Made by a program: the position numbers and the translations under genes. Below the pieces are notes generated by a model. It ran no database searches, had not been told where the DNA came from, and worked only from the letters and a program-made list of their open reading frames with translations. 64,000 nucleotides of DNA, taken from NCBI GenBank assembly GCA_030068145.1, contig JAPJBO010001056.1:1-64000 (forward strand), read 5' to 3'. This document shows positions 5,058 to 63,809 of this stretch, one piece after another (position 1 is the stretch's first letter; each line of letters opens with the position of its first letter). Source of the DNA: Diplonema papillatum (lineage: Eukaryota > Euglenozoa > Diplonemea > Diplonemida > Diplonemidae).

Positions 5058-9459
<4,402 letters not shown>

Positions 9460-23258: not shown

Positions 23259-23317
23259 AGGGGGGAACGAAGCGAAAAGAACGGCCTTTTTTGTCAAGCG
23301 GGTTCTTTAGTGTGTGA

Positions 23318-23693: not shown

Positions 23694-24896
23694 TCTCTTT
23701 TCGGTAGTTCTTTGGTATGCGAGTGAGTGTGTCTTCCTTTTACTTACCTCGCGTGCGTGCGCGTGCGTGTTAGTTTGAGTTGTGTTCTCTTTTCTTGTGT
23801 TTCTTTAATTAATGCGAGTGTGTGTGTGAGTGAGTGGGTATGAGTGAGTGAGCGAGTGAGTGTGTGGGTTGCTTTGTTTTTTTAGTCTTGCTTTCTTCCA
23901 CGGGTATTTACCTGGCAAGCGCATGTAGGTTGTTGTTAACTTTTATGGAGTTCGGCTTCGTTCCGCAAACGACGAGATTTGTTTTCATCAAAAAAAAAAA
24001 AAAGGACTGACGTCCTTTCCTGGGACAACAGGTGGCGCTCGCCCCAAAGCATTTTTAATTGCGCGAACATGCCGCGCGGATGCGGGGGTCGTGAACCAGT
24101 TCCCCGCTTTGAGCTGTTTTGAAAGTACGCAGGGCCTGTGTACTCTCAAAAGAACAGGACGCGTGGCGGTTGTTCGATCCCCAATCCTGTTCCTTTTTCA
24201 GGTCGGGAACTCTGAACACCCTACCACCACTCGCAAAACACGCTGGTGTCCCACGCCTGTTTACACTTTCACATAACATTTCCATTGGGCTTCCCCCGGC
24301 TTCGTCCTATCCAGGCATAGTTCACCATCTTTCGGGTCCCAACAAGTGTACTTAACCTCAAATTCCTTTCCAGTAAATCAGGATCGGGCTGTGCTGCGTC
24401 CTCAAGGATTGGCACATCTCCCATTCAGTGTGACTTGTGGGTTTGACACCCTAAGCCTCGCACACGTGTTAGACTCCTTGGTCCGTGTTTCAAGACGGGT
24501 AGTAGAAGATCGCTGTGTCTGACATGAGCCTGTGAGCGTTTAACCACGTCAGGCCAGCGGGAGCAAGGACGTTGTCCGAAAACGCCGACACGTACCCTTC
24601 GCTGACGATGCCGCGGGTCACCCCGTCAACTCATTCCTATCCTGGTCGATCCGAGCAAAAGTGAGGCAGCCAGCAAGCCGTCTCGCAATAGAAGCTTGGA
24701 CGATCCGAATAGGTCCAGACGTCTCAACCAAACCCCAGTGAAGGAGCAATGATTAAGATTTGAACGCATCCCCAACTCTAGCAAGCGTGTGTTGGGCAAC
24801 CCGCACGGTTCGTTATCCAGCGACGCACCTTGCAAGCTTGCTTGAGCGCCTTCGGCGCATCAAGTTGGAATTCTTACGTTTCTGATTGCAAGCGGG

Positions 24897-25934: not shown

Positions 25935-28348
25935 CTACATGAACACGGATACAGCGTGCGGGCCACGTGCCGTTGCCGTCCGATGGCCCGCGAAGCGAAA
26001 GCGGCCGATGCTGCGGACCATCGACTCGAAGTACCGCTGGCAGAGGATGCCTGCGTAGTACTGCTCCATTGACAGCGCTGCTCGCGCGAGCTCCGCCAGC
26101 CTCGCTTGGCGCTGGAGGCGGCCGCAGGCCGCGCCACGTGCCGCGGCGCTCCTCCACGCAGCCTGGATCAGCGCCGCGGCCTGCGCCCTCCGCCCGTTGC
26201 GGAACGACAGCAGCAGCAGCGCCAGGGCCGCGACGTCGTCGCCGGTCCTCGGCGCGAAGACGGAGATCAGCTCCGGCCGCAGCTGCTGATGCCGCCGCCG
26301 GGTCAGCGCCCAGTGCAGCGCGTGCGTCACGGCAGACTCTCCCGCCGCCAGCGGAGGAGACGCCCGACGTCCGCCGCCCGTCCGCTTCGACAGGTACGCT
26401 TCGAACGACGCGACCGACTTGGTCAGCAGGTGCCGCCGCTTGGCCTCGGGCCCCGCGATCTGCACGGGCCCCGCCCACGTGACCCCCTGCCCGCCCGCAC
26501 CGAGCGACGCCCGCTGCGACGGCGGCCGCGCGCGGAGCTGGATGAGCGTGATCGAGAGGCCGCAGGCGCCCTGCAAGATGATGACTTGGTGGCTGCACCG
26601 GCGGTCGATGCTCCGGTTCGTCGCGCCCCGGCGGAGCGCGAGCAGCAGCGTCCGCCCACTCACCGGCTCCCAAAAGCGGTCCAGCACGCGCAGGCTGCCC
26701 CCGGGTCCGGGCTCTGTAAGGCACGGAGACGGTCTGTAGTCGTGCAAGCAGTCGAACACCCGCTCCCGCACGGCTCCCGTCTCGTCCTCGGCGGCTGTCA
26801 CCTCGACGAACAGCAGCTTCGCACCCCCCCCGGCGCTCCACTCACCCCCCGCCGCCGCGAACGACGACGCTCGATACCCCCCCTCGACCCCCCAGCAACC
26901 CGCGGCGGTCCCCACCCCGCTCTCCGAGCGGCGCGAGGCGCCGGGCTCCCAGGAGTTGTCGTCCTCGAGGAGGGCCTGCTGGTTCGCGATGTCGCGGAGC
27001 AGCTGGGCTTCGTCGGTGGCGGGGAGGGGGCCGAGGCGCCAGGACGAGAGCTTGAAGCTGTAGTCGCCGGCTTCGCGGAGCTTGAGCTCCGACGCGAGCC
27101 GCCGCAGCTTGAGCGCCGACGACGCCCGTCGGGCGCGCCTGTTGTTTAAAGACGGCGGCACGCGGGCCACGACGCCGTTGTGGCTGTTCCCCGTGCAGTC
27201 CAGTGCGATGGTCGCGCCGGGGCCCTCGTCGAGGCGCCAGCCGGCCCGCAGCAGGCGCAGCCGGCGGCTGCCGTGCCAGACGCGGCACGAGCGCAGGGAC
27301 CCGTGCAGGAAGTTCTTCGGCGCCCCGCGGTCGTTGAGCGCGCCGAGCGTCAGTGCGTCGGTGAAGTCTTCGAAGGCGCGTGGGAGCTCCGCGGCGCCCG
27401 TCTTCACCTCCACCGAGCGGCCGTCGTACTCGGCTCGCAGCGTCCTGGACGCCGGGTCCGCAAGCGTCCACAGCAGCCGGTGCCACTTCCCGTCGGTGCA
27501 GCACGCCAGCTCTCCAGTTGACCCGGAGCCGATGGCTGCCGTCATCACGCGCCCCTCCGCGTCTGCGAGGCGGAGCGCGATGGAGTCCCGCCGCGGCTCT
27601 CCGTGCTGGTCGACATTCGCGACGATTTCCAGCGTCTGCCGCTTGTTGTACCGGTCGGTCACCCCCAGGAGAGTCATCGGCGGCATCGCCGCGGGTTCCT
27701 TCGCCTCCGGCGCGCCGTATGCACGGCCGTCGCCCGGCTTCCCGTCTGTTCTGGCCTCCCACGCCTTCGCGTCGATCCGGTACCAGAGCTCGATCGCCAG
27801 CCCTTCACGCATGCGCGACCCGAAGTTGCCCAGCGTCCCGACGTTCACGCTGGTGTCACCCGCGAACACCAGGCATGTGTCCGGGAAGGCCGCCTCTGCC
27901 CACGCAGCGCCGGCCGGCTCGATCGTCGCGCCGCTCTGCAGGTCAACTAAGGCGCCCGGTAGCGCATCTCCCGCCGCACATCCTTGCGCCCCCCGCAGCG
28001 GCCAGTAGTACAGGACGAGGTCGCCCGCCCACACGACCAGCTCCGTCACGTGCCCGTGCAGCGGGTGCGCTGTGACCGAGCGGTCGCCCTTCGACTCGCC
28101 GGTGCCGCCGATGCACCCGGACCCGCTGCCGGCCGCGCCCCAGCCGTCGAACTTGTGCGGGCACGTGTGCAGGCCGACCCGGCTGCGCAGCGGGACGCCG
28201 TCCAATATGAAGCGCATGTTGTCTTCCTCCAGGTCGTCGAGAGTGAGCGTGACGTTGTGCCACGCGCCGTCGAAGAGGAGGTCGTTCGTGTCGACCACGA
28301 TCTCCAGCTCGTTGTACAGCTGGTCCCTCACTCTGCAGTAGGCGACGC
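25935..28348 (-). CDS. Laminin-G/ConA-like protein with IQ-like motif, terminal exon
   Basis: An 803-residue exon ending in TAG at 25,935. The acceptor is TTCTCAG at 28,349, continuing the frame of the exon at 33,439 with matching phase, so the join forms a glycine codon. The first ~60 residues complete a laminin-G/ConA-like fold begun in the upstream exon (DGAWHNVTLTLDD, RFILDGVPL). A second such domain covers roughly residues 160-380 (GLAIELWYRID, DGKWHRLLWTL, LTLGAL, HGSLRSCRVW). A long Ala/Arg-rich region follows, and an IQ-like calmodulin-binding motif (AALIQAAWRSAAARG) lies about 85 residues before the end. The folds bind carbohydrates or proteins in other systems; the ligand here is unknown. 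Third codon positions are very GC-rich. The antisense frames in this exon are shadows. Confidence 0.75.
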
Positions 28349-28521
28349 CTGAGAATGTTTGTGAGTGACGCAAGCTTGACTTGGCTGGCTGAGCCTATCT
28401 TTTTGCACAGAAATTGTTGGCCGTGCGTCGTAGCACTGATTGGCCGGGCATACTTTTAGACCGAAATGCATTTTACGGACTGAGCGCTTTGGCATGTGTT
28501 GGGTAAAACGAAACACGGCGC

Positions 28522-38461: not shown

Positions 38462-40276
38462 TTGATCGTCGGAAACACAAAAATGTCCCTTGACAAATGG
38501 GTGGTCAAGCGCGAGAAGTGCGAAGCACTTGAACAAGCCGTGGCGGGAAACGGTGCGGTGACAAAGAAGCAGGCGCTGGCGATCCAAGCAGAAGTGCGCG
38601 ACAAGAACAAAGCAAAGGATGCAGCACTTCGCCACGGCAAGAAGGGGGTGGAGTGGTGCGAAACCGACAGGGAAAAGATCGCGGACTATGTAAGGGTGTA
38701 CGGCTTGAACGGTGCCATCAGGCAATGGTCAGCGGACGGGAACGAGAGAACACTGTCCAAAGGAAGCGCAAAGCGGTTTTATGACGGTTCTGTCAAACTC
38801 GACGAGAAGCCAGTGGCGGGGAAAAGGGGCCGTCCGGCCCTGTTGTCAGAAGACGAGGAAAAACAGCTGTTCAGGCTTCTTACTGTTGCCCGGGTGACTG
38901 GCACTGCTGTGACTACGAACTTCGTCAGCAACTCAGCACGAGGATTAGTAAAGGCGTCTGCTGAACCGGAGCGCTTGGAGAGTGCAAACACTCTGTCGGC
39001 AGACTGGGCACGGAAGCTACTCAACCGCCGGAATTGGGTCTGCGCAAGGCAACAACATCGTTCGTTGAAACAAAAGCCAAAGAGGCCGAAGTATTTGCTG
39101 CGTTCGGCGAAGAATGTCGCGCAATCATCGAGGGCCCCCCGAACTCATCATCAACGCGGACCACACGAGTGGTCCATTCCTCCCTGTGGCATCTAACACG
39201 TACGAGGTAAAGGGCACTAAAAAGGTCCGAGTGCGCCACGGCCAGGACAAGCGCTGCATCACCGCCTTGTTTGCGGCGAACGCCGTCGGAACAAAGCTGC
39301 CACCGCAGCTCATTTACACTGGCCGCACAAAGAGGGTCCATCCGGATACCTCTGACTACAACGTGGAAGGGTGGGCGTTCACACAGAACAGCAGGCATTG
39401 GGCCACCGAATCCACAACCCTCGAATGGATTTCCGATGTGCTTGCGCCGTACAGAACGAAAACACTCGAACGCCTGCTGCTTTCTGAGGATACCTGGAGT
39501 CTGCTTGTTATTGACAAATTCTGCGGGCAACAGACAGAAGTGGTTCGGACAAAACTGGCTGAATTGAAGTTCCGGGTTGTGGTCATTCCTGCCGGATTCA
39601 CTGGCATGCTCCAGCCAATGGATGTCGCTTTCAACGCGCAAGTAAAGGCCAGCCTTCGTTCGTCCTTCGCATCGTGGTTCAAAGGGAAAATTGCAAAGCT
39701 CTGGCCCGCAAGAAGGCAAAGAAACATCCAACTGTTCATGGCACAGACGCCGACGAAGAAAACCAGATTGTCGAACTCTCGCAGCGCATCAACACAGGAA
39801 CAAAGTCGATCCGCGACATCCATTTTGGCTGGCTGCACACTGCGTTTTCTGCAGTCGACAGCCGCGCAATACAAGATTCCTTCACAACGTGCGGGATCCT
39901 GCCGAAAGCCGAAGGACAAGAAAATGCAAGACAGCAAAAAAAACCCGATGAATTCGACTGGTCCGGAGAGTGTGAGCTCACTCAAGAAGAACTTACTGAA
40001 TTAGACCGTGCCCTGGGCGACCTCGCTGCCTCCGATGCTTCTGACAACCTGGAAGACGCACCGATGGATCTGCCCGATCAGCCTGAGGCGCCTGGCGGAT
40101 GCAAGCTCACGCGGTTGGAGATCGAAAAACTGTGCCGCTTTTTCTCGTTGCCTTCTGTATTTCACTTTGTTGGTGCCATGCCCTTTGACGAATTGAAACT
40201 TTCGCATTTGACGGCTTACCGGAACACCCACACAATCGTGAACACCCAGAAAGCAGGCAAAGAAGGCTATCACTGA
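38462..40276 (+). pseudogene. Decayed DDE_1 (pogo/Tigger-like) transposase
   Basis: The N-terminal part (38,462 to about 39,040) has the basic, helix-turn-helix-like region with GKRGRPALLSEDEEK and the LSADWARKLLNRRNWV block usual before the catalytic core. The core follows in other frames: NADHTSG (first Asp, near 39,155), LLVIDKFCGQ (second Asp, near 39,510) and GMLQPMDVAFN (third Asp, near 39,615). The tail holds GWLHTAF...DSFTTCGILP, a signature of this family, and an acidic end. Shifts near 39,040, 39,135 (a C run) and 39,690 break the frame at least three times, so it cannot give one protein unless introns are present, and no splice sites fit well. The three acidic residues themselves survive, implying recent decay. 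Confidence 0.8.
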
Positions 40277-41372: not shown

Positions 41373-41850
41373 CGGAGCACTATCGTCTTGCGACACGAAG
41401 CTGGTAAGACGCTGCCCGCCCTTATTATTTTCGCCGTGGAAGTTCAGGTTGCGCAGGCTTCACCTGGCTGCTTCCCCGAGAAGCAAGCGCCACGGCCTCC
41501 AACGGTTGTAATGCGCGGTCTTTTTTTAAACGGAGAAGGTAGCACCACTCGTGCTGGCTCAGTAGGTGTGCAGCAGTGCTCCGGAGACGCCGCCGCGACT
41601 GCCAAAAAGGCAGCGGACACTGTTCCAGTGGTTCGGCCGCGTGATTTGTTTGTGTGTACGTGTGTAAACCCTGTTGAGTGATTTAGCACAGCATGCTGCC
41701 ATCCGACACTTTTTGATACATACAATGCATGCAAGCTTGTTACCATAAGAAATTGACTTGGGGCTATCAGCGGCCATCGCCCGGGTTGGAGTGCAAAGAT
41801 TCTACGAATGCAGGCGACTAAGCGATAATCTGCCGGTTACCTCTTTGCAC
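41373..41850. other. Short unique stretch, no gene called
   Basis: Between the end of the exon array and the rRNA-like segment. At 41,645-41,755 it has TTTGTTTGTGTGTACG...GCACAGCATGCTGCCATCCGAC, also present at 43,065-43,160 and 44,470-44,560. Confidence 0.5.
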
Positions 41851-42252
41851 GTGGAGTGTCGCGGTTTCCGCCTCTCGCGCTCATTCCATTTTAACGAACG
41901 AGATCTCGAACCTTAAACAGGTGGGCGTGTCGTTGTAGGGGGTGTCCTTTGGTATCGGCGGCTTGCTGCTTACCCGAGACGCGCGCTACTTCATAAGGGG
42001 ACTGCGCGCGACTCATAGCGCGCGGAAGAGCGAGCCAATAGCAGGTCTGTGATGCTCCTAAATGTCCTAGGCTGCACGCGCACTACACTGACGCATTAAA
42101 CGAGTTTGAGAGCCTTCCGGCTAATACTTTGAACTTGCGTCGTGATGAGGATCGATGACTGCAAGTATTCTCCTTGAATGAGGAGTGCCTAGTAGGCGCA
42201 AGTCGTCAGCTTGCTCTGATTACGTCCCTGCCATTTGTACACACCGCCCGTC
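41851..42252 (+). rRNA. Partial, divergent 18S rRNA (3' domain) fragment
   Basis: Recognised by several universal SSU landmarks in order: TTTTAACGAACGAGA, AATAGCAGGTCTGTGATGC, GCACGCGCACTACACTGA, GCCTAGTAGGCGCAAGTC, GATTACGTCCCTGCC and TTTGTACACACCGCCCGTC. Homology stops right after that last motif, and the 5' two thirds of the gene are missing, so it is a fragment. Helix positions look divergent from common sequences; this may be true lineage divergence or decay. GTAGGCGC instead of GTAAGCGC is reminiscent of alveolates, at low confidence. Confidence 0.85.
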
Positions 42253-43318
42253 TTGATCGTCGCGTTCACGCGCGCCTGGCGGTGACCAACGGTGATCGAA
42301 ACGCATGCCGGTGCCACAACCAAGGGCAAAGGGAAACAAAGGGTTGAGTTCGACTGTTTGCCTGCTCCGCAATCTGCGAGTCGGACAGGATGAGGAGAGG
42401 AATAAAACGTGGGAGGGAGTGCGAGATTGTGGGAGTGACACGCGGGAGCGAACATGAAGCTGTTTTCTTTAGGGGTGCCATGGAATTCATTCTTGCGCTG
42501 CTTTCCGCAATCCTGAGAGGGCGGGAGATAGAACGTTTTAAAGCAGAACAAAAAATTGGCGCGGCGAACAAAAAATTGGCGCGGCAAAGTGATCCAACGT
42601 ACAGGGTGGAAGAGCAAGGAATAGAAAGAGAGAGAGAGAAGACAAAACAAAGATTTCACTCTAAAAAGATTCCATGTCGGCGTTTGTAGCGTTATTTGTC
42701 TTAAAGGGGGGAAAATGTTAGTTTAATGTTTAGGCAGGACACTGCCTCTCATGTATGGTTGATGCTAGAATCAAGTCTTCTTCGAAGAAAGTGCAATGGG
42801 GGGTTGAATAATAACGATAGTACAGTGTACTTGCCACGCCCTTTCGACAAGACAAACCCCAGTACAAACGCTGAGTGTTCAACAAACCGACATGCGTCAG
42901 GATTGAGCTCACCGCCCTGTAAAACGCACGGTCATTTTTATTCACCACAACTTCTTTCGTATCTTTTCGAATTGAATGAGTACCTACTCCCCTCCCCGTG
43001 CATAAGATGGATAAATAATTCGGGTTTTGGCAGCATCCATCTTAATCAAGGGGGGTTGGCTATTGTTTGTGCGTACATGTGAAACCCCTGATTTAAGTGA
43101 ACTAGCACAGCACGCTGTCATCCGACGCTTTTGATATAGTACGATGCCAAACCCCCCCCCCCTTTGCACTAATAAAAAAAATTTGATGTCACCCCATACT
43201 GGCCCCGAAACCCCATCTAAAACGGGTCCCAAACGGTTTTTGACGGGCTGAGTCGAGGTAAAGGGGTCTCCGAAGGCCCACGAATGGGCCCAGGTGGGTC
43301 CAGGTGGGCCCCGGAGCG
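42094..43318. repeat. Segmental duplication, copy 1 (~1.2 kb)
   Basis: From CATTAAACGAGTTTGAGAG, inside the rRNA fragment, to GGGCCCCGGAGCG. The second copy is offset by 1,434 bp and differs by small indels. Confidence 0.9.
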
Positions 43319-46283: not shown

Positions 46284-49200
46284 TCAACAAATGGACTTGT
46301 ATTCTTCTTCTGGGACCGCCATGTTCGAACTATCTTCATCTTCGACCTCGTCGATAGATTCTACACCATACGCAGCCTTGCCTGACATCACTTTCGCATA
46401 GTAAACAACCCCCAAAACGGCTGCCACAAATCCAACTCCTCCAACACTAACCATTGTTGCCAACAGCCACGAGTGGTTGCTTCCTTTTCCAGGGTGCTCC
46501 AAAGCCGAATCCTTTACAGCTGTGCAGTTGTCAACATGTTCGCAGACAGGATCCCCAAGCATGCACGTGCAGGTTGTGCACCGGTCAACGTCGTACTTTC
46601 TGCCATTCGAAACAAGGGTAGCATTGGGAGTTACGCATTGAGTGGCTTTGCAGGGGGTGCCACTGCACCTGAACTTTCCTGCATCGCACCTGCAGCTCAC
46701 GCAGTCGTCAACCCAACGGACGGTTCCATTCGCGTAGACACGGTCATCAGCCATACAAGAAGTAGATGGGCATGGAGTTCCCGTGCACCTGAACTTTCCC
46801 GCATCACACATGCACCTCACACAGTCGTCAACCCAGTGGACGCTCCCATTTGCATAGACGCGGTTGTCAGCAACACAAGAAGCAGGTGCTCCAGGTGCCG
46901 ACGTTTGCACGCATTGGGACTTCTTACTGCATACTGGGTCACCAAACATGCACGTGCAGGTTGTGCACTGGTCCAGATCGTACGTTCCACCATTCGAAAC
47001 AAGAGTAGCATAGGGAGTCACGCATTGATTGGCATTGCACGGATTGCCTGTGCACCTGAACTTTCCTGCGTCGCACCTGCAGCCCACACAGTTGTCAACC
47101 CAGCGGACGGTTCCATTCGCGTAAACACGATCATCAGCGACACAAGACGTGGCTGGGCATGGAGTGCCAGTGCACCTGAACTTTCCTGCATCGCACATGC
47201 ACCGCACACAGTCGTCAATCCAGCGGACGGTTCCGTTGGCGTAGACACGGTCGTCAGCAATGCAAGAAGGTGCTGCAGGTGCCGACGTTTGCATGCATTC
47301 AGACTTCTTACTGCATACTGGGTCACCATACATGCACGTGCAGGTTGTGCACTGGTCAAGATCGTACTTTCCGCCATTCGAAACAAGAGTAGCATTGGGA
47401 GTCACGCATTGAGTGGCATTGCACGGATTGCCTGTGCACCTGAACTTTCCTGCGTCGCACCTGCAGCCCACACAGTTGTCAACCCACCGGACGGTTCCAT
47501 TCGCGTAAACACGATCATCAGCGACACAAGACGTGGCTGGGCATGGAGTGCCAGTGCACCTGAACTTTCCTGCATCGCACATGCACCGCACACAGTCGTC
47601 AATCCAGCGGACGGTTCCGTTGGCGTAGACACGGTCATCAGCAATGCAAGAAGGTGCTGCAGGTGCCGACGTTTGCATGCATTCAGACTTCTTACTGCAT
47701 ACTGGGTCACCATACATGCACGTGCAGGTTGTGCACTGGTCAAGATCGTACTTTCCGCCATTCGAAACAAGAGTAGCATTGGGAGTCACGCATTGAGTGG
47801 CATTGCACGGATTGCCTGTGCACCTGAACTTTCCTGCGTCGCACCTGCAGCCCACACAGTTGTCAACCCACCGGACGGTTCCATTCGCGTAAACACGATC
47901 ATCAGCGACACAAGACGTGGCTGGGCATGGAGTGCCAGTGCACCTGAACTTTCCTGCATCGCACATGCACCGCACACAGTCGTCAATCCAGCGGACGGTT
48001 CCGTTGGCGTAGACACGGTCGTCAGCAATGCAAGAAGGTGCTGCAGGTGCCGACGTTTGCATGCATTCAGACTTCTTACTGCATACTGGGTCACCATACA
48101 TGCACGTGCAGGTTGTGCACTGGTCAAGATCGTACTTTCCGCCATTCGAAACAAGAGTAGCATTGGGAGTCACGCATTGAGTGGCATTGCACGGATTGCC
48201 CGTGCACCTGAACATTCCTGCATCGCACGTGCATCGCACACAGTCGTCAATCCAGCGGACGGTTCCATTCGCGTAAACACGATCATCAGCGACACAAGAC
48301 GTGGCTGGGCATGGAGTGCCAGTGCACCTGAACTTTCCTGCATCGCACATGCACCGCACACAGTCGTCAATCCAGCGGACGGTTCCGTTGGCGTAGACAC
48401 GGTCATCAGCAATGCAAGAAGGTGCTGCAGGTGCCGACGTTTGCATGCATTCAGACTTCTTACTGCATACTGGGTCACCATACATGCACGTGCAGGTTGT
48501 GCACTGGTCAAGATCGTACTTTCCGCCATTCGAAACAAGAGTAGCATTGGGAGTCACGCATTGAGTGGCATTGCACGGATTGCCTGTGCACCTGAACTTT
48601 CCTGCGTCGCACCTGCAGCCCACACAGTTGTCAACCCAGCGGACGGTTCCATTCGCGTAAACACGATCATCAGCGACACAAGACGTGGCTGGGCATGGAG
48701 TGCCAGTGCACCTGAACTTTCCTGCATCGCACATGCACCGCACACAGTCGTCAATCCAGCGGACGGTTCCATTGGCGTAGACACGGTCGTCAGCAATGCA
48801 AGAAGGTGCTGCAGGTGCCGACGTTTGCATGCATTCAGACTTCTTACTGCATACTGGGTCACCATACATGCACGTGCAGGTTGTGCACTGGTCAAGATCG
48901 TACTTTCCGCCATTCGAAACAAGAGTAGCATTGGGAGTCACGCATTGAGTGGCATTGCACGGATTGCCTGTGCACCTGAACTTTCCTGCGTCGCACCTGC
49001 AGCCCACACAGTTGTCAACCCACCGGACGGTTCCATTCGCGTAAACACGATCATCAGCGACACAAGACGTGGCTGGGCATGGAGTGCCAGTGCACATGAA
49101 CTTTCCTGCATCGCACATGCACCGCACACAGTCGTCAATCCAGCGGACGGTTCCGTTGGCGTAGACACGGTCATCAGCAATGCAAGAAGGTGCTGCAGGT

Positions 49201-52200
49201 GCCGACGTTTGCATGCATTCAGACTTCTTACTGCATACTGGGTCACCATACATGCACGTGCAGGTTGTGCACTGGTCAAGATCGTACTTTCCGCCATTCG
49301 AAACAAGAGTAGCATTGGGAGTCACGCATTGAGTGGCATTGCACGGATTGCCCGTGCACCTGAACATTCCTGCATCGCACGTGCATCGCACACAGTCGTC
49401 AATCCAGCGGACGGTTCCATTCGCGTAAACACGATCATCAGCGACACAAGACGTGGCTGGGCATGGAGTGCCAGTGCACCTGAACTTTCCTGCATCGCAC
49501 ATGCACCGCACACAGTCGTCAATCCAGCGGACGGTTCCGTTGGCGTAGACACGGTCATCAGCAATGCAAGAAGGTGCTGCAGGTGCCGACGTTTGCATGC
49601 ATTCAGACTTCTTACTGCATACTGGGTCACCATACATGCACGTGCAGGTTGTGCACTGGTCAAGATCGTACTTTCCGCCATTCGAAACAAGAGTAGCATT
49701 GGGAGTCACGCATTGAGTGGCATTGCACGGATTGCCCGTGCACCTGAACATTCCTGCATCGCACGTGCATCGCACACAGTCGTCAATCCAGCGGACGGTT
49801 CCATTCGCGTAAACACGATCATCAGCGACACAAGACGTGGCTGGGCATGGAGTGCCAGTGCACCTGAACTTTCCTGCATCGCACATGCACCGCACACAGT
49901 CGTCAATCCAGCGGACGGTTCCGTTGGCGTAGACACGGTCGTCAGCAATGCAAGAAGGTGCTGCAGGTGCCGACGTTTGCATGCATTCAGACTTCTTACT
50001 GCATACTGGGTCACCATACATGCACGTGCAGGTTGTGCACTGGTCAAGATCGTACTTTCCGCCATTCGAAACAAGAGTAGCATTGGGAGTCACGCATTGA
50101 GTGGCATTGCACGGATTGCCTGTGCACCTGAACTTTCCTGCGTCGCACCTGCAGCCCACACAGTTGTCAACCCACCGGACGGTTCCATTCGCGTAAACAC
50201 GATCATCAGCGACACAAGACGTGGCTGGGCATGGAGTGCCAGTGCACCTGAACTTTCCTGCATCGCACATGCACCGCACACAGTCGTCAATCCAGCGGAC
50301 GGTTCCGTTGGCGTAGACACGGTCATCAGCAATGCAAGAAGGTGCTGCAGGTGCCGACGTTTGCATGCATTCAGACTTCTTACTGCATACTGGGTCACCA
50401 TACATGCACGTGCAGGTTGTGCACTGGTCAAGATCGTACTTTCCGCCATTCGAAACAAGAGTAGCATTGGGAGTCACGCATTGAGTGGCATTGCACGGAT
50501 TGCCCGTGCACCTGAACATTCCTGCATCGCACGTGCATCGCACACAGTCGTCAATCCAGCGGACGGTTCCATTCGCGTAAACACGATCATCAGCGACACA
50601 AGACGTGGCTGGGCATGGAGTGCCAGTGCACCTGAACTTTCCTGCATCGCACATGCACCGCACACAGTCGTCAATCCAGCGGACGGTTCCGTTGGCGTAG
50701 ACACGGTCATCAGCAATGCAAGAAGGTGCTGCAGGTGCCGACGTTTGCATGCATTCAGACTTCTTACTGCATACTGGGTCACCATACATGCACGTGCAGG
50801 TTGTGCACTGGTCAAGATCGTACTTTCCGCCATTCGAAACAAGAGTAGCATTGGGAGTCACGCATTGAGTGGCATTGCACGGATTGCCTGTGCACCTGAA
50901 CTTTCCTGCGTCGCACCTGCAGCCCACACAGTTGTCAACCCAGCGGACGGTTCCATTCGCGTAAACACGATCATCAGCGACACAAGACGTGGCTGGGCAT
51001 GGAGTGCCAGTGCACCTGAACTTTCCTGCATCGCACATGCACCGCACACAGTCGTCAATCCAGCGGACGGTTCCGTTGGCGTAGACACGGTCGTCAGCAA
51101 TGCAAGAAGGTGCTGCAGGTGCCGACGTTTGCATGCATTCAGACTTCTTACTGCATACTGGGTCACCATACATGCACGTGCAGGTTGTGCACTGGTCAAG
51201 ATCGTACTTTCCGCCATTCGAAACAAGAGTAGCATTGGGAGTCACGCATTGAGTGGCATTGCACGGATTGCCCGTGCACCTGAACATTCCTGCATCGCAC
51301 GTGCATCGCACACAGTCGTCAATCCAGCGGACGGTTCCATTCGCGTAAACACGATCATCAGCGACACAAGACGTGGCTGGGCATGGAGTGCCAGTGCACC
51401 TGAACTTTCCTGCATCGCACATGCACCGCACACAGTCGTCAATCCAGCGGACGGTTCCGTTGGCGTAGACACGGTCATCAGCAATGCAAGAAGGTGCTGC
51501 AGGTGCCGACGTTTGCATGCATTCAGACTTCTTACTGCATACTGGGTCACCATACATGCACGTGCAGGTTGTGCACTGGTCAAGATCGTACTTTCCGCCA
51601 TTCGAAACAAGAGTAGCATTGGGAGTCACGCATTGAGTGGCATTGCACGGATTGCCTGTGCACCTGAACTTTCCTGCGTCGCACCTGCAGCCCACACAGT
51701 TGTCAACCCACCGGACGGTTCCATTCGCGTAAACACGATCATCAGCGACACAAGACGTGGCTGGGCATGGAGTGCCAGTGCACCTGAACTTTCCTGCATC
51801 GCACATGCACCGCACACAGTCGTCAATCCAGCGGACGGTTCCGTTGGCGTAGACACGGTCATCAGCAATGCAAGAAGGTGCTGCAGGTGCCGACGTTTGC
51901 ATGCATTCAGACTTCTTACTGCATACTGGGTCACCAAACATGCACGTGCAGGTTGTGCAATGATCAAGGTCATACTTTCCGCCATTCGAAACAAGAGTAG
52001 CATTGGGAGTCACGCATTGAGTAGCATTGCACGGAGTGCCAGTGCACTTGAAGCTTCCTTCATCGCAAATGCACGACACACAATCGTCAACCCACATGAC
52101 ACTTCCATTAGTCAACACATGTCCGTCAGTGGCAGTACAAGGCTGCGAAGCCCATGCCAGAAGTTGGCAAGAGGCAAGTATGAAGAATGCGGTAAGGAAT

Positions 52201-52205
52201 CGCAT
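46284..52205 (-). CDS. Secreted/membrane protein of 44 six-cysteine VWC-like modules
   Basis: A 1,973-residue protein. The ATG at 52,205 is preferred over one 35 codons upstream because it begins a clean signal peptide (MRFLTAFFILASCQLLAWAS). The body is 44 modules of about 40 residues with six cysteines each (pattern C...NGT..W..DC..C.CDAG.F.C...PC), resembling one half of a von Willebrand factor type C domain. Three module types alternate; the third (CVTPNATLVSNGGKYD...CTTCTC) is the most distinct. Most modules carry NxT glycosylation sequons. A single membrane segment (WLLATMVSVGGVGFVAAVLGVVYYA, about residues 1,913-1,937) and a 33-residue acidic cytosolic tail end the protein. A cell-surface adhesive or structural role is inferred from family habits; the ligand is unknown. 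No intron interrupts it. Its GC content is lower than in the other genes here. Confidence 0.85.
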   Translation of the reverse strand: MRFLTAFFILASCQLLAWASQPCTATDGHVLTNGSVMWVDDCVSCICDEGSFKCTGTPCNATQCVTPNATLVSNGGKYDLDHCTTCTCMFGDPVCSKKSECMQTSAPAAPSCIADDRVYANGTVRWIDDCVRCMCDAGKFRCTGTPCPATSCVADDRVYANGTVRWVDNCVGCRCDAGKFRCTGNPCNATQCVTPNATLVSNGGKYDLDQCTTCTCMYGDPVCSKKSECMQTSAPAAPSCIADDRVYANGTVRWIDDCVRCMCDAGKFRCTGTPCPATSCVADDRVYANGTVRWIDDCVRCTCDAGMFRCTGNPCNATQCVTPNATLVSNGGKYDLDQCTTCTCMYGDPVCSKKSECMQTSAPAAPSCIADDRVYANGTVRWIDDCVRCMCDAGKFRCTGTPCPATSCVADDRVYANGTVRWVDNCVGCRCDAGKFRCTGNPCNATQCVTPNATLVSNGGKYDLDQCTTCTCMYGDPVCSKKSECMQTSAPAAPSCIADDRVYANGTVRWIDDCVRCMCDAGKFRCTGTPCPATSCVADDRVYANGTVRWIDDCVRCTCDAGMFRCTGNPCNATQCVTPNATLVSNGGKYDLDQCTTCTCMYGDPVCSKKSECMQTSAPAAPSCIADDRVYANGTVRWIDDCVRCMCDAGKFRCTGTPCPATSCVADDRVYANGTVRWVDNCVGCRCDAGKFRCTGNPCNATQCVTPNATLVSNGGKYDLDQCTTCTCMYGDPVCSKKSECMQTSAPAAPSCIADDRVYANGTVRWIDDCVRCMCDAGKFRCTGTPCPATSCVADDRVYANGTVRWIDDCVRCTCDAGMFRCTGNPCNATQCVTPNATLVSNGGKYDLDQCTTCTCMYGDPVCSKKSECMQTSAPAAPSCIADDRVYANGTVRWIDDCVRCMCDAGKFRCTGTPCPATSCVADDRVYANGTVRWIDDCVRCTCDAGMFRCTGNPCNATQCVTPNATLVSNGGKYDLDQCTTCTCMYGDPVCSKKSECMQTSAPAAPSCIADDRVYANGTVRWIDDCVRCMCDAGKFMCTGTPCPATSCVADDRVYANGTVRWVDNCVGCRCDAGKFRCTGNPCNATQCVTPNATLVSNGGKYDLDQCTTCTCMYGDPVCSKKSECMQTSAPAAPSCIADDRVYANGTVRWIDDCVRCMCDAGKFRCTGTPCPATSCVADDRVYANGTVRWVDNCVGCRCDAGKFRCTGNPCNATQCVTPNATLVSNGGKYDLDQCTTCTCMYGDPVCSKKSECMQTSAPAAPSCIADDRVYANGTVRWIDDCVRCMCDAGKFRCTGTPCPATSCVADDRVYANGTVRWIDDCVRCTCDAGMFRCTGNPCNATQCVTPNATLVSNGGKYDLDQCTTCTCMYGDPVCSKKSECMQTSAPAAPSCIADDRVYANGTVRWIDDCVRCMCDAGKFRCTGTPCPATSCVADDRVYANGTVRWVDNCVGCRCDAGKFRCTGNPCNATQCVTPNATLVSNGGKYDLDQCTTCTCMYGDPVCSKKSECMQTSAPAAPSCIADDRVYANGTVRWIDDCVRCMCDAGKFRCTGTPCPATSCVADDRVYANGTVRWVDNCVGCRCDAGKFRCTGNPCNATQCVTPNATLVSNGGKYDLDQCTTCTCMYGDPVCSKKSECMQTSAPAAPSCIADDRVYANGTVRWIDDCVRCMCDAGKFRCTGTPCPATSCVADDRVYANGTVRWVDNCVGCRCDAGKFRCTGNPCNANQCVTPYATLVSNGGTYDLDQCTTCTCMFGDPVCSKKSQCVQTSAPGAPASCVADNRVYANGSVHWVDDCVRCMCDAGKFRCTGTPCPSTSCMADDRVYANGTVRWVDDCVSCRCDAGKFRCSGTPCKATQCVTPNATLVSNGRKYDVDRCTTCTCMLGDPVCEHVDNCTAVKDSALEHPGKGSNHSWLLATMVSVGGVGFVAAVLGVVYYAKVMSGKAAYGVESIDEVEDEDSSNMAVPEEEYKSIC
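47018..52009 (-). repeat. 13 in-frame tandem units of 384 bp inside the VWC-like gene
   Basis: Exact 384-bp spacing from 47,018 to 52,009. Each unit is 128 codons, three modules. The middle module exists in two forms: A (WVDNCVGCRCDAGKF) and B (WIDDCVRCTCDAGMF). From N- to C-terminus the order is A B A B A B B A A B A A A. Units are otherwise almost identical, with single changes (for example FMC instead of FRC in the 48,938 unit). Flanking modules at both ends are clearly diverged. Confidence 0.95.
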
Positions 52206-53869
52206 TGAGGATGCAGGCGCAGGTTTTCTTGTGTTTGGTTCCTGAGTATTAGTAATAGGGAGGGGAAGAGAGGGGAAAATGACAAGGACCGGCGATCTGG
52301 ATGAAACCATTCATTTCATTCTATTCACAAGACCAAGCATTGGGGGAACCATTCGATTCATCGTTATTCCAAATCCACATACGGGGGTCTACTGATCCAA
52401 CCCTACTCTTTTGAATGCGTACCTATGCTCAATGAGTTCTCAGAGCGAGTTGGTGGACTGCACTGGTCGCAATGACGGTTTCGTTCAAAAATGTTTGTTA
52501 TGTGGCTGTTCACCACTAGATGATCTTCAGTGAAGGTTTTGATTCTGAAGATCTCCACTTTGGGGATCTTTGCTTGAGATCGCTGCTGTAGCAGTCACCA
52601 TGCTTGGCAGGATCTCCGCTTGCAGAACTCGGGTTATCACGAATGCCAGGGGGATGCAAACAAGGCGTCTAAGTAACCACGTTCGCCGGCGCAGCAAGCG
52701 AGGTGTATCACCTTAAAGAAAGGAAGAGGAAGGCGAGAGGTAAATGATGCAACGAGCCGGGGAACGACGACAGACAAAAAAGAACAAAAAGGTAAGCCCT
52801 GGCTTTCCAGGAATGGGGTTGATTAGGGCAAAAGGTTGAGTCTTCTGGAAGCGCTGAGTTTGTGTAGCGTGTTCCAATTTGCCTGCTGCATCACATGGCC
52901 ACGAGCTGCACTTCGACGTGTTTGGCTAAGACTTTCCCTGTGCCACGGGCACGGAAGCCTTTGGTGCCAGAGCGACCACCTATGATGAGTCTACCGTTTG
53001 TGGCTGCACGCCCAGAGCGGTTTGTTTTTCTTTCCGTCGAAGAAATGATTCCATAGGATGGCGCGTAGTGACTACGCAAACACACCTTCGTACCCTTTCA
53101 CCCTGGGATCCGGTAGCAGTGGCCGTAACACCATCTTCTTCTCATTTTATTTTCGCTTTTTTTTTTTTGTTCCGTTTTCTTGGGGAGGACTCCCCGTTTG
53201 CCGACATCTTTGTGTGGCGTATGCTTGTAACTGATGGCGTCTGATTGAAGCAAGGGGTGCCGGAGGTATAGCGGAGACATGCGGGCGGAAACACAAGTGC
53301 ACAGAGGGTCGTCCATGGTCCTAAGCTGCAAATGGGCCAGGCGTTGCACCCCGAACCCTGGCTGTCCGGGCGTAAGGAGCGGTCGCGTTCGGACGGCGCT
53401 TTCTTTGGTTTGTGCGCGCATGCGAAAACCACCTGCAAATTTTCGTGCAGCGCTGCCAACTACCAACGTTTAGCACCAACACTGCATTGTTGGCGCGAGA
53501 AAGTATGTGCGGGCGCCGCCCATTTCACATTTTCGGCGGAGACCAGTCAGACCTGCAGAGCAGGGTTTTGACCTGCAAACGCTCCCCCCCGCACGCCAAC
53601 TAAAATGTCATATGATATTATATTCGCCGGAAGCAAAACGTGCTGGTCGCAGCGCAAAGTAATGACTTGCCGACGGACCCACTGTGTGCATGTGTTGTAG
53701 ACCTGTTTTTATGTGGTGCCTTCCTGTGCGAGAGGCGTCCACGTGTCTGCGTGAGTGTGTATGTGCACCGCAGTCTGAACAGAATAGACGAAAGGCGTGA
53801 ACGCACGAAGAGGGGTGCGGGGGCCCTGCAGCCGGCCTCCTGAAGCAGGTGCGTGTTGAAGATAAGAAC
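52206..53869. other. Presumed 5' region of the VWC-like gene and intergenic DNA
   Basis: The first hundred bases should contain the promoter and leader of the minus-strand gene, but no TATA or initiator is convincing. Between 52,500 and 52,580 the phrases GAAGATCTCC, GGGGATCTTTG and GATCTTCAG give weak inverted symmetry. A dispersed repeat copy is at 53,410-53,495. Open frames up to 122 codons near 53,100-53,470 look like chance. Confidence 0.45.
53410..53495 (+). repeat. Dispersed repeat, TTTGTGCGC family, copy 3 (diverged)
   Basis: GGTTTGTGCGCGCATG, GCGCTGCCAACTACCAACG, TAGCACCAACACTGCATTGTT, parallel to 19,497 and 24,897. Confidence 0.55.
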
Positions 53870-54945: not shown

Positions 54946-55055
54946 ACCTTCTCTTTTTCCGTGGTAACAGGCGCGTTGTGGCGTCCTCGTTGAAAAGAGA
55001 CGGTTGGCAGCGATCGTAGTACCTAACAAATAGGAGCTACACACGTGCGCATAAC

Positions 55056-55265
55056 CAAAATACTCGAGGGAATGCCTTGTGCTCATTTAGAGGGGGAGAA
55101 AACAATACAACTACAAGGTGGGTCTTTTTTGTTGAACGTTAACGCCCGCCACAGAACCCAGATGTACCTGTGTTTCGTGTGGGCTACAGCACATTTACCT
55201 CCTTTGTCTATCGCAACTGGCAGTCTCCTCAAGCATTTCCTACAACGCAGGTGCTTACAAAAAAA
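55056..55265 (+). mobile_element. SINE-like element, family 2, copy A (full length)
   Basis: About 210 bp: AAAATACTCGAGGGAATGCC, GAAAACAATACAACTACAA, CCCAGATGTACCTGTG, GGGCTACAGCACATTTACC, AAGCATTTCCTACAACGC, GGTGCTTAC and an A run. Its head (AATACTCGA) and tail (GCATTTCCT...GGTGCTTA...AAAA) are shared with family 1. Confidence 0.75.
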
Positions 55266-55396
55266 GAACTGTTGAACGCTTACGCCCGCCAGTAAGCCCA
55301 GATTTACCTGTGTTTCGTGTGGGCTGCAGCACATTTACCTCCTTGGATCTATCGCAACTGGCAGTCTCCTCAAGCATTTCCTACAAAGCGGTGCTT
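55266..55396 (+). mobile_element. SINE-like element, family 2, copy B (5' truncated)
   Basis: Starts at GTTGAACGCTTACGCCC directly behind the A tail of copy A and runs to AAAGCGGTGCTTT. A tandem arrangement typical of insertion at A-rich tails. Confidence 0.72.
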
Positions 55397-58391: not shown

Positions 58392-58504
58392 TGAGTTTTT
58401 TTATGGGAACAGGAACCGCATTGTTCGTTGAGCAGCGGTTGCCGAATCATGCCGCAGCACCGTCCTTTGTGTTGTTCGGGCTTCTTCGAGCGGCCTTCTT
58501 GAAC

Positions 58505-59018
58505 AAAAACGCTCGAGGGGCTGCCTTGTGCTTACTTCGAAGGAGGCTAGAGGGGGAGAAAACAATACAACTACAAACACAGTGGGTCTTTTTTGTTGTG
58601 CGTTATGCCCGCCACTGAACCCAGATTTGCCTGTGTTTCTAGCCGTATTTGTGGATTAGAAGGTCGGTATTTTAGAGTCTCCGGTTGACCGTAGAGGCTT
58701 GAGTATGGCGGGGGGTTGAGAAAAGTGAGAGGGTACAGCTCGTTTCGGGTGTTGTGTCACTCCGTTGTGAAACCTTGCGAAGTCCCCTAACGCGTTTAGA
58801 GGGTGCTTGGGATTGGGTAGGGTGTGGTCGTTCTGCTACGGCGTGAAAAGCCAGGAAGTTTCGACGCTAATCTTCGGCTCTTGGTTATGTTCACCGGGTT
58901 GCGTGCTCGTCAGGAAGATCCCGGTGCCTGGTTATTCTTTCGTGTGGACTACAGAGCAGTTACCTCCTTTGATCTTTCAGCTTCCTCAAGTATTTCCTAC
59001 GAAGCGGGTGCTTATACG
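58505..59018 (+). mobile_element. SINE-like element, family 2, split by an insertion
   Basis: 5' part 58,505-58,639 (to CCTGTGTTTC) and 3' part 58,938-59,018 (from TTTCGTGTGGACTACAG) form one full element when the 298 bp between them are removed. Confidence 0.78.
58640..58937 (+). mobile_element. AGTCTCCGGTTGACC dispersed element inserted in a SINE
   Basis: Begins TAGCCGTATTTGTGG and ends TGGTTATTC. TTTC is duplicated at its borders (58,636-58,639 and 58,938-58,941). No terminal inverted repeats. Shows that this dispersed family moves as a discrete unit of about 300 bp. Confidence 0.75.
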
Positions 59019-59406: not shown

Positions 59407-59813
59407 CTCCCGTCAGTACAGATGTAATATTCGGAATGGCCTTGTGAAACCCACGAAGCCGATGAAGAAATACGTAGTTTTGTTTTATTCTTTTACTTGT
59501 TAGTTGTCGACAACTTTTTTTGTATTGAGGTGTCATTCAGATGTAAATCTAAAGCCGCCAACGTCAAGTTTTGTTAAGCATTGAGTTCTTTTAAGTACAT
59601 GAACCACACGGATTAAGATGCACTTTGTTAAGCATTAGTACATGAACCACATGGATTAGCATGCACTTTGTTAAGCATTGAGTTCTGTAAAGTGCAAGTG
59701 CCACCAAGGCAGGCGAGCCGTCCACGGGCTAGTGTTACTTTATGACGTCATCCGTCGGGAGAGCCAATGCCGTGACACCTATGATCAAAGTAAAGAAGAA
59801 ACGAGGGGAATAC

Positions 59814-60185
59814 CTGAATCCATGGGCTGAAGTCGCCCCAGGGCGACGCGTCACCGCTTTGGTCGGGGGACCAGCTGTTGGCGACGGTGCGCAGGGTCCG
59901 CTCCGGGTGGGGCATCATGATGGTTGCGCGGCCGTCTTCGCTGCAGACGCCCGCGATGCCGTCGGGGGACCCGTTCGGGTTCGCCGGGAACGCCTGCGTC
60001 GGGCGGCCCCTGGTGTCGACGTAGCGCGCCGGCACCTGGCACGCCGCCCGGTCGCCCTCGCTGCGGAACTCGGCCCGGCCCTCGCCGTGCGACACGGCGG
60101 CTGGGATCACAGCGCCCGCCATGCCCTTGAAGAAGATGCTGGTCGCGCCCTCCTGCACCTTCACCAGGGCCACGCGTGCTTCGTA
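59814..60185 (-). CDS. PurL (FGAM synthase), intact penultimate exon
   Basis: PurL makes formylglycinamidine ribonucleotide from FGAR, ATP and glutamine, the fourth step of de novo purine synthesis in the cytosol. This 372-bp phase-0 exon (acceptor ACCCTCGCAG, donor CAG|GTATTC) encodes the C-terminal half of the glutamine amidotransferase domain: [61 protein letters not shown] and [10 protein letters not shown]. The MPHPE motif carries the His and Glu of the Cys-His-Glu triad. It is the only one of three copies with both residues. The exon is very GC-rich. Confidence 0.85.
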
Positions 60186-60434
60186 CTGCGAGGGTGTGTG
60201 GGGGGCGTTAATGTGAGTTTAGTCCGAATATAGAGGTGCGGATTTTCGAAATTCTCTAGATCTAGCTCTCGCGGGCAGCTAACGAAGCGAGCTACCCGCT
60301 TTTCTCGTTGGGGAAGGCCAAAGGGTCCTATCCAGGGCATTTCTCTACCGTTTTTAGGGTTCAAGCGTTTTGGACAAGGTTTTCGAGTTTCTAGCTCCGC
60401 GCGGCCGTCCCAGCCGCAGACGCGTGTAGATGCG

Positions 60435-60892
60435 CCGTGTAGATCCTGGCGTCTAACCTAAATATACTGGGGCTGATCTACACTTGGCGTCTCACCTAAA
60501 TATGCTGGGGCCGATCTACACCTGGCGTCTCACCTAAATATGCTGGGGCTGATCTACACACTGGCGTCTCACCTAAATATGCTGGGGCCGATCTACACAC
60601 TGGCGTCTCACCTAAATATGCTGGGGCTGATCTACACACTGGCGTCTCACCTAAATATGCTGGGGCCGATCTACACACTGGCGTCTCACCTAAATATGCT
60701 GGGGCTGATCTACACACTGGCGTCTCACCTAAATATGCTGGGGCCGATCTACACCTGGCGTCTCACCTAAATATGCTGGGGCTGATCTACACACTGGCGT
60801 CTCACCTAAATATGCTGGGGCTGATCTACACACTGGCGTCTCACCTAAATATGCTGGGGCCGATCTACACCTGGCGCCGAACCCGAATATAC
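60435..60892. repeat. ~39-bp minisatellite, about 11 units
   Basis: Unit GGCGTCTCACCTAAATATGC, TGGGGCYGATCTACACACT. Units with GGGCTG and GGGCCG alternate over part of the array, so a two-unit period was amplified. Preceded by CCGTGTAGATCCTGG. Confidence 0.92.
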
Positions 60893-61216
60893 TGCGGCTG
60901 GCCGTCGGGTGACCAGCTGTTGGCGACGGTGCGCAGGGTGGGGCATCATGATGGTTGCGCGGCCGTCTTCGCTGCAGACGCCCGCGATGCCGTCGGGGGA
61001 CCCGTTCGGGTTCGCCGGGAACGCCTGCGTCGGGCGGCCCCTGGTGTCGACGTAGCGCGCCGGCACCTGGCACGCCGCCCGGTCGCCCTCGCTGCGGAAC
61101 TCGGCCCGGCCCTCGCCGTGCGACACGGCGGCTGGGATCACAGCGCCCGCCATGCCCTTGAAGAAGATGCTGGTCGCGCCCTCCTGCACCTTCACCAGGG
61201 CCACGCGTGCTTCGTA
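60893..61216 (-). pseudogene. PurL penultimate exon, broken copy 2
   Basis: Same acceptor and coding sequence as 59,814-60,185 up to MMPHP. An 11-bp deletion between GGGT repeats then removes the catalytic Glu codon and shifts the frame into minisatellite sequence, ending after about 30 more residues. The original donor is absent. Offset from the intact copy is 1,031 bp. Confidence 0.88.
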
Positions 61217-61474
61217 CTGCGAGGGTGTGTGGGGGGCGTTAATGTGAGTTTAGTCCGAATATAGAGGTGCGGATTTTCGAAATTCTCTAGATCTAGCTCT
61301 CGCGGGCAGCTAACGAAGCGAGCTACCCGCTTTTCTCGTTGGGGAAGGCCAAAGGGTCCTATCCAGGGCATTTCTCTACCGTTTTTAGGGTTCAAGCGTT
61401 TTGGACAAGGTTTTCGAGTTTCTAGCTCCGCGCGGCCGTCCCAGCCGCAGACGCGTGTAGATGCGCCGTGTAGA

Positions 61475-61808
61475 TCCTGGCGTCTAACCTAAATATACTG
61501 GGGCCGATCTACACACTGGCGTCTCACCTAAATATGCTGGGGCTGATCTACACACTGGCGTCTCACCTAAATATGCTGGGGCCGATCTACACCTGGCGTC
61601 TCACCTAAATATGCTGGGGCTGATCTACACACTGGCGTCTCACCTAAATATGCTGGGGCTGATCTACACACTGGCGTCTCACCTAAATATGCTGGGGCTG
61701 ATCTACACACTGGCGTCTCACCTAAATATGCTGGGGCTGATCTACACACTGGCGTCTCACCTAAATATGCTGGGGCCGATCTACACCTGGCGCCGAACCC
61801 GAATATAC
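61475..61808. repeat. ~39-bp minisatellite, about 8 units
   Basis: Same unit as 60,435-60,892; fewer units account for the 916-bp instead of 1,031-bp period between exon copies. Confidence 0.92.
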
Positions 61809-62132
61809 TGCGGCTGGCCGTCGGGTGACCAGCTGTTGGCGACGGTGCGCAGGGTGGGGCATCATGATGGTTGCGCGGCCGTCTTCGCTGCAGACGCCCG
61901 CGATGCCGTCGGGGGACCCGTTCGGGTTCGCCGGGAACGCCTGCGTCGGGCGGCCCCTGGTGTCGACGTAGCGCGCCGGCACCTGGCACGCCGCCCGGTC
62001 GCCCTCGCTGCGGAACTCGGCCCGGCCCTCGCCGTGCGACACGGCGGCTGGGATCACAGCGCCCGCCATGCCCTTGAAGAAGATGCTGGTCGCGCCCTCC
62101 TGCACCTTCACCAGGGCCACGCGTGCTTCGTA
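61809..62132 (-). pseudogene. PurL penultimate exon, broken copy 3
   Basis: Carries the same 11-bp deletion as copy 2, so the deletion preceded the second duplication. Acceptor ACCCTCGCAG is intact, so it could still be spliced in from the exon at 63,062 and would yield a truncated, Glu-less amidotransferase domain. Confidence 0.88.
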
Positions 62133-62384
62133 CTGCGAGGGTGTGTGGGGGGCGTTAATGTGAGTTGAGTCCGAATATAGAGGTGCGGACTTTCGAAATT
62201 CTCTAGATCTAGCTCTCGCGGGCAGCTAACGAAGCGAGCTACCCGCTTTTCTCGTTGGGGAAGGCCAAAGGGTCCTATCCAGGGCATTTCTCTACCGTTT
62301 TTAGGGTTCAAGCGTTTTGGACAAGGTTTTCGAGTTTCTAGCTCCGCGCGGCCGTCCCAGCCGCAGACGCGTGTAGATGCGCCG

Positions 62385-62725
62385 TGTAGATCCTGGCGTC
62401 TAACCTAAATATACTGGGGCTGATCTACACTTGGCGTCTCACCTAAATATGCTGGGGCTGATCTTAGTCCCGCTTTTCTTGTTGGGGAAGGCTATAGGGT
62501 CCCCCTATCCAAGGCATTTCTCTGCCGGTTTTAAGAATAACTATTGGTTTAAGCGTTTTGGAGTTTTTTTAGCTCCGTGCGGCCGTCCCAGCCGCAGACG
62601 CATGGAGATACGCCGTGTAGATCTCGGCGTCTAACCTAAATAAACTGGGGCTGGTCTACACCTGCGTTTGACCTAAATATACCGGGGCCGATCTACACCT
62701 GGCGTCTAACCAAATATAATGGGTC
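62385..62725. repeat. Decayed ends of the 39-bp minisatellite
   Basis: Two units at 62,395-62,465, then a diverged copy of the spacer (CCGCTTTTCTTGTTGGGG, AGCCGCAGACGC) and three weak units to 62,725 (AAATATACCGGGGCCGATC). Marks the older end of the expansion. Confidence 0.8.
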
Positions 62726-63061
62726 CGTCAACTCTAATCCAAATACACTGAAGCCATGCATGGTAGTTGCAAGTCTTCTTCAGATGCTGTATTATACAGA
62801 AAAGAAAAGAATGGCAAAAAATGCGGAAAAGGAGTGCAGGTATGAAACCTGACTGGGGGACTGGCTCTCGTTGTGTAGGGAACCCCGTAGATTTGGTGCG
62901 ATGGCTTGTATTAGTGTGATCAGGCTCAGGTTTTGCCGGGTTTGTCTGAGGGTTTGCCGGCTTTGCGCCTGGGTTCAACCGAGTGTGCCTGGTGCTGGCC
63001 AGTGTTGTTATTAGAATTCTCACGATGCGTGTTTAACACACAAGAAAGCGCAATGTCATAC

Positions 63062-63411: not shown

Positions 63412-63628
63412 GTAAGCACCTGCTTTGTAGGAAATGCTTGAGGAGAAAGCCAGTTGCGATAGTTCAAAGGAGGTAAATGTGCTGTAGCCCAGACGAAACA
63501 CAGGTTAAATCTGGGCTTAGTGGCGGGCGTAAGCGTTCAACAAAAGAGACCCACTTTGTAGTTGTATTGTTTTCTCCCCCTCTAGCCTCCTTCGAAATGA
63601 GCACAAGGCAGTCCCTCGAGTATTTTTG
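63412..63628 (-). mobile_element. SINE-like element, family 2, full copy on the minus strand
   Basis: Reading on the minus strand: AATACTCGAGGGACTGCC, AGGCTAGAGGGGGAGAAAAC, CCCAGATTTAACCTGTG, GGGCTACAGCACATTTACC, GCATTTCCTACAAAGCAGG, GTGCTTAC. The A tail was apparently replaced by the MITE-like insertion. Confidence 0.78.
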
Positions 63629-63809
63629 TGTCTAACAAATGCAATTTGTCAAGAACAAAAACAGATCGATGGGTGAGACGACAACGACTACTGCTCCCAG
63701 ATACTCGAGGAACCCGCACATGAAATCAGAAGAAGTCCAAGCGAACTTGTTTCCGACCACATTCAACCGAACGGAGGTCAGTAGCTCTCTCATGCACTCC
63801 CCCGCGTTT

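Follow-up and report, generated by a model that had tools for sequence, protein, structure and literature searches.

The 3' part of PurL (phosphoribosylformylglycinamidine synthase), a purine-synthesis gene of the marine protist Diplonema papillatum, lies on the minus strand at the end of the window, i.e., the stretch of 64,000 nucleotides of contig C1056 that was analysed (Table 1). The genuine exon starting at 60185 matches the GATase_5 domain (PF13507) with 127.6 bits at a cut-off of 27, which places it in PurL, and its MMPHPER segment, containing the catalytic His-Pro-Glu, aligns with solved PurL chains. The Glu following His-Pro is at what we take to be the position of E1262 in Salmonella PurL. 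This residue number was not found in the accessible text of PMC3815217. When the last exon is joined, the best match to a solved PurL rises from 124.4 to 130.6 bits and reaches nearly to the C-terminus.

The genome was searched in the form of 2,910 contigs with 271,365,524 bases, in which contigs under ~10 kb seem to be missing; the published assembly comprises 6,181 contigs and 280.3 Mb according to the available part of its description (PMC10161547). GATase_5 has six matches in the whole genome, five on contig C1056, of which two are the exon copies discussed below, and one on contig C1840. The latter match represents the start of the domain, is located near a contig end, and fits as the 5' continuation of the gene. 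We infer that the two contigs carry a single PurL gene split between them, and this gene appears to be the sole one for FGAM synthase in D. papillatum.

Table 1. Features of the PurL locus on contig C1056, in the order of transcription.
Feature	Position	Strand	Remarks
PurL exon	65144-64986	-	Just outside the window, same contig; precedes the exon with the catalytic Cys
PurL exon with catalytic Cys (VCNGCQ...SGQ)	63154-63062	-	93 nt; donor CAG|GTATGA at 63061
Older, diverged partial copy of the intron unit	62469-62740	-	~80-83% identical; without exon sequence
Copy 3 (decoy 1)	61820-62132	-	Exon nucleotides 1-324 without 11 bp; acceptor intact, no donor
Duplication junction and 39-bp minisatellite	61477-61819	-	8.2 copies at 61477-61792
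Copy 2 (decoy 2)	60904-61216	-	Truncation and 11-bp deletion as in copy 3; acceptor intact, no donor
Duplication junction and 39-bp minisatellite	60446-60903	-	11.2 copies at 60446-60876
Genuine PurL exon (YEARV...MMPHPER...SPWIQ)	60185-59814	-	372 nt, phase 0; donor CAG|GTATTC at 59813
Last PurL exon (FFVNARKWCDQTTA stop)	56789-56745	-	Completes the gene

When the exon region is used as a DNA query, it is found at three places only in the whole genome, all at this locus (three candidates, all three scored). The original prediction had placed three exon starts in direct order on the minus strand, at 60185, 61216, and 62132, and these coordinates are exact. Equally exact was its description of an 11-bp deletion that copies 2 and 3 have in common directly after MPHP, where it lies between two ACCC repeats; the His is kept, the Glu of the catalytic triad is lost, and the frame is shifted. 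The acceptors of both copies are intact, and both are located between the exon with the catalytic Cys and the genuine exon, as had been claimed. What did not hold is that the exon as such is triplicated. The homology to the exon stops after CGAC (at 61820 and 60904), 48 nt short of the exon end, and the copies are, therefore, exon fragments of 313 nt, which lack the last 48 nt as well as the genuine donor CAG|GTATTC and continue into the 39-bp minisatellite instead. Read onward, their frame runs into a stop, which is codon 124 of the copy (61763-61761 and 60847-60845). The original observation is accurate yet incomplete.

The copies are nearly identical to each other and to their source. Up to the deletion, the genuine exon with its upstream sequence and copy 2 are identical at 567 of 567 aligned bases, which is far beyond chance. 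Between copies 2 and 3, two intronic bases out of 599 differ; these changes, at 62190 and 62167, are private to copy 3 and lie within the 75 nt upstream of the acceptor, where copy 2 equals the genuine exon. The change at 62167 turns ACTAAAC, a candidate motif for a branch point, into ACTCAAC. The introns flanking the triplicated exon also hold the arms of an inverted repeat (58503-58577 and 63555-63629), which are 75 nt long and 93% complementary, and relatives of these arms are present at 55054-55396.

For the splice donors of D. papillatum, a set of 21 sites from two families was collected, 17 of them in CCT/Cpn60 genes and four in PurL. The CCT/Cpn60 search yielded 40 matches, from which 18 exon ends were taken; 17 could be read and one, which was ambiguous, was dropped. 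Three of the sites (50a, 50b, and 169a) come from close paralogues. The consensus appears to be G|GTATGC, with G at position -1 and T or C at position +4 in all 21 donors and G at position +5 in 18; an A at position +4 is found in none. Since these sites were picked by eye, every GT in the vicinity of the 18 exon ends was counted as well. In this pick-free count, 19 of 80 GTs fit GTVYGH, compared to ~6 expected, whereas none fits GTRAG, which is a weak figure by itself as only ~1.8 would be expected. A de novo search for donors via drops in coding signal gave 82 candidates and no clear consensus.

When each site is left out in turn, real donors score between 3.2 and 10.4 (minimum 3.21) on the model built from the 21 sites. 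No matching donor is found in the intron that contains the copies, where the best of 154 GTs scores 0.12; the absence of strong GTs from these 2.9 kb is only mildly unusual, with 2.4 expected. The motif TAG|GTGAGA of the minisatellite scores -2.5. The sequence GTGTGT, which forms the start of the intron behind a real CCT donor (220b), is also present in the array, but it follows an A rather than a G there and scores -2.8. An in-frame cassette of 324 nt (phase 0, no stop) that would use GCA|GTATAT was considered and rejected, as this site scores -6.1. Donor predictors of the vertebrate type would be misleading in D. papillatum.

These data bear on the fate of the copies in splicing. Because the acceptor of each copy is present but no donor of the species type follows, the likeliest outcome, judged from the sequence, is that the copies are passed over for want of a fitting donor. 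The original prediction that two decoys have to be skipped to make active enzyme agrees with this structure, as 63062 has to be spliced to 60185 in any functional mRNA. It had also considered that the copies might be a source of an amidotransferase-dead isoform. A cassette isoform of this kind, made by exon substitution, is not supported, as the intron has 154 GTs and all of them score below the weakest of the 21 real donors, whereas the notion that the copies cannot yield active enzyme is supported. Occasional use of a copy's acceptor would result in a truncated PurL that lacks both the Glu and the C-terminus, and not in an exon-swapped enzyme. With respect to PurL biology, the copies are probably inert.

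Simple decay, which had been offered as the other explanation for the state of the copies, is not quite right. The 11-bp deletion and a C-to-A change are both located inside the last 32 of the 599 bp before the duplication junction, and the chance that two randomly placed lesions would be so near the junction is low (P ~0.003, calculated post hoc). Because of this clustering, the copies were probably broken at birth rather than by later decay. The minisatellite arrays behind copies 2 and 3, read by eye, have their left edge and variant units in common, which is consistent with unequal exchange. Taken together, the locus is probably best explained by a recent tandem duplication of part of an exon that was born broken and was subsequently doubled by unequal exchange, with the resulting copies being skipped for lack of a donor. 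The proposed course of events would start with a duplication of the replication type that initiated in an intronic minisatellite and came to its end within the exon, where CGAC may have provided a short microhomology. It would have copied the end of the intron with the acceptor as well as the exon up to nucleotide 324, and the same event would have introduced the deletion between the ACCC repeats and the C-to-A change. The broken copy would then have been doubled by unequal exchange between homologous units. With an intact 3' splice site and no 5' splice site of the species type, both copies would be spliced over, and the mRNA would contain the junction of 63062 and 60185. Gene conversion could also hold the copies alike, and their true age may, therefore, exceed their apparent age.

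The possibility that the intron unit is a mobile element was considered and rejected, since it is mostly local to contig C1056 in the genome search, where counts are lower bounds. A piece of the intron of ~70 bp (about 60365-60286) is found with 78-81% identity in at least 14 other contigs and with 70% identity in contig C256, and it constitutes a short dispersed repeat. In contig C67, the array part of the intron unit is matched at 72%.

The PurL copies appear to belong to the partial-gene tandem repeats that have already been described for this genome. According to the available sections of the D. papillatum genome paper, dozens of gene models contain partial tandem repeats, and in a worked example, PacBio reads support the array, whilst RNA-Seq indicates its absence from the mature mRNA (Valach et al., 2023; PMC10161547). 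As far as these sections go, PurL resembles the repeat-bounded gene structures in that a coding part of the gene is repeated in tandem beside the expressed part, within the same genome, and in that copies of exon ends make up part of an intron; a partial segment bearing coding sequence indeed lies in tandem beside the expressed part at PurL. At PurL, by way of variation, the repeat lies in a late intron, comprises the 5' portion of an internal exon together with the acceptor, and is present in only three near-identical copies. Tandem arrays with a period of at least 200 bp were encountered six times in 15 sampled stretches representing 135 kb of the genome. The locus also offers a recent example of a way in which parts of genes may become repeated in D. 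papillatum, and its pattern would consist of a start in a minisatellite, an end within an exon, and lesions clustered at the junction. Like tandemly duplicated, mutually exclusive exons in the portions of the literature at hand (PMC9013439; PMC9741552), the PurL copies are direct tandem copies within one gene with the same acceptor and phase at their 5' end. Unlike them, they are truncated, frameshifted, and devoid of a donor, and cannot substitute for the genuine exon; they neither possess both splice sites nor keep the frame. No exon duplication in PurL was found in the literature searched for "formylglycinamidine" and "exon duplication", and the literature matches listed included no work on purines in diplonemids.

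Several other explanations deserve consideration. The repeat-rich intron may have been falsely expanded in the assembly, in which case fewer exon copies, or none, would exist. The genome paper, in the text available, indeed states that a chromosome-scale assembly is needed to clear artificially duplicated or collapsed repeats, but judging by its evidence, the strain seems to be haploid, which speaks against a stitching of haplotypes (PMC10161547). Moreover, the two copies differ by two bases and in the length of their arrays, they have a junction and a deletion in common that are absent from the genuine exon, and neither the window nor the 15 sampled stretches contain Ns. Hence, an assembly error appears unlikely, and we infer that the assembly is correct at this locus. 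Assuming that the copies are real, they might act as alternative terminal exons. If 62132 or 61216 were used as the acceptor, subsequent read-through into the intron and polyadenylation would generate a PurL that ends at codon 124 without the Glu and the C-terminus. Except for the deletion and a single base, the copies essentially reproduce the genuine acceptor and the exon up to nucleotide 324, a copy's acceptor is the first one to be met, and the frame is open until the stop at 61763-61761. On the other hand, no functional gain is evident, and such repeats are absent from the mRNA in the example in the accessible part of the genome paper (PMC10161547), which makes this use of the copies quite improbable.

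Another explanation would turn the copies into poison exons. The minisatellite motif TAG|GTGAGA would act as the donor of an exon of 372 nt that ends in an in-frame TAG, and decay of the resulting messages would tune the level of PurL. Inclusion would indeed introduce a premature stop (codon 124), and the motif occurs 18 times in the copy-bearing intron, whereas on a vertebrate matrix no site of similar strength is present on the minus strand in the two neighbouring introns. This matrix, which may not fit the host, ranks the motif above three PurL donors, and its calculated pairing with U1 is also stronger (-9.5 kcal/mol vs. -5.4, -7.2, and -7.2 for donors B, C, and that of the good exon), although the U1 used was that of vertebrates and may not be the host's. 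Minisatellites that supply splice donors are reportedly known from human IFI6 through work of Turri et al. in 1995. The accessible parts of later publications also describe this case (PMC4526556; PMC2572611; PMC2915984), which provides a precedent in humans (PMC4526556). There, as at PurL, the minisatellite adjoins coding sequence and its unit contains a donor-like motif; in contrast to IFI6, as far as it is described in those parts, the motif at PurL does not fit the donors of its host. The donors of Diplonema never have an A at position +4 (0 of 21) and score at least 3.2, where the motif scores -2.5, and GTRAG is absent among the 80 GTs near exon ends, even though just 1.8 were expected. 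With no GT among the 154 reaching 3.21, a usable donor is lacking. The poison-exon explanation, favoured by the vertebrate matrix and U1 and contradicted by the donors of the species, was dropped as extremely unlikely.

A trans-splice site for the spliced leader looks like a 3' splice site without a donor behind it. The diplonemid spliced leader (a 37-mer) has 325 and 291 matches, 616 in all, in the genome when up to three mismatches are permitted, whereas the reversed control has none on either count (0 + 0). In the literature searched, the letters of the leader turned up in a single paper, which deals with dinoflagellates. Conceivably, the orphan acceptors of the copies sometimes receive the spliced leader. 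If the exon with the catalytic Cys were joined to a copy, the other acceptors would lack a cis partner and could be trans-spliced. The PurL message would thereby be divided in two, namely a truncated mRNA for the 5' part and a short 3' mRNA capped with the spliced leader. If true, exon duplication would convert a cis-spliced intron into a boundary of the polycistronic style, but we consider this very unlikely. Skipping of partial copies that were born broken is retained as the likeliest explanation of the locus. The locus constitutes a natural experiment, in which three 3' splice sites with near-identical surroundings are present in one intron and a donor follows only one of them. Junction counts at the three acceptors would show if cis-splicing is exon-defined in diplonemids, if the acceptor that is met first prevails, and if acceptors without a donor draw the spliced leader.

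Elsewhere in the window, the minus strand contains a single open frame of 2008 aa (46287-52310), in which 29 stretches match von Willebrand C. It is composed of a 384-bp tandem repeat of 14.4 copies with 96% matches and a C-terminal stretch that looks transmembrane by eye, and an antisense frame is open over 1940 codons. Fragments of 28S and 18S rRNA genes are located at 24339-24472 (minus strand) and about 41848-42301 (plus strand); outside the window, such fragments were found in one of the 15 sampled stretches (6874-7001 of that stretch, minus strand). Scattered 28S rRNA pieces in the D. papillatum genome are mentioned in the available text of the genome paper (PMC10161547). Further features of the window are an open frame with a DDE_1 transposase domain (39069-40001, plus strand; 62 bits), a gene for a U-box protein (22497-23306, minus strand), and a frame of 819 aa with weak similarity to laminin G, slightly below the cut-off (25938-28394, minus strand). 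On contig C50, two Cpn60-like genes are found in tandem (389742-391990 and 394563-396647), apparently as the result of a whole-gene duplication.
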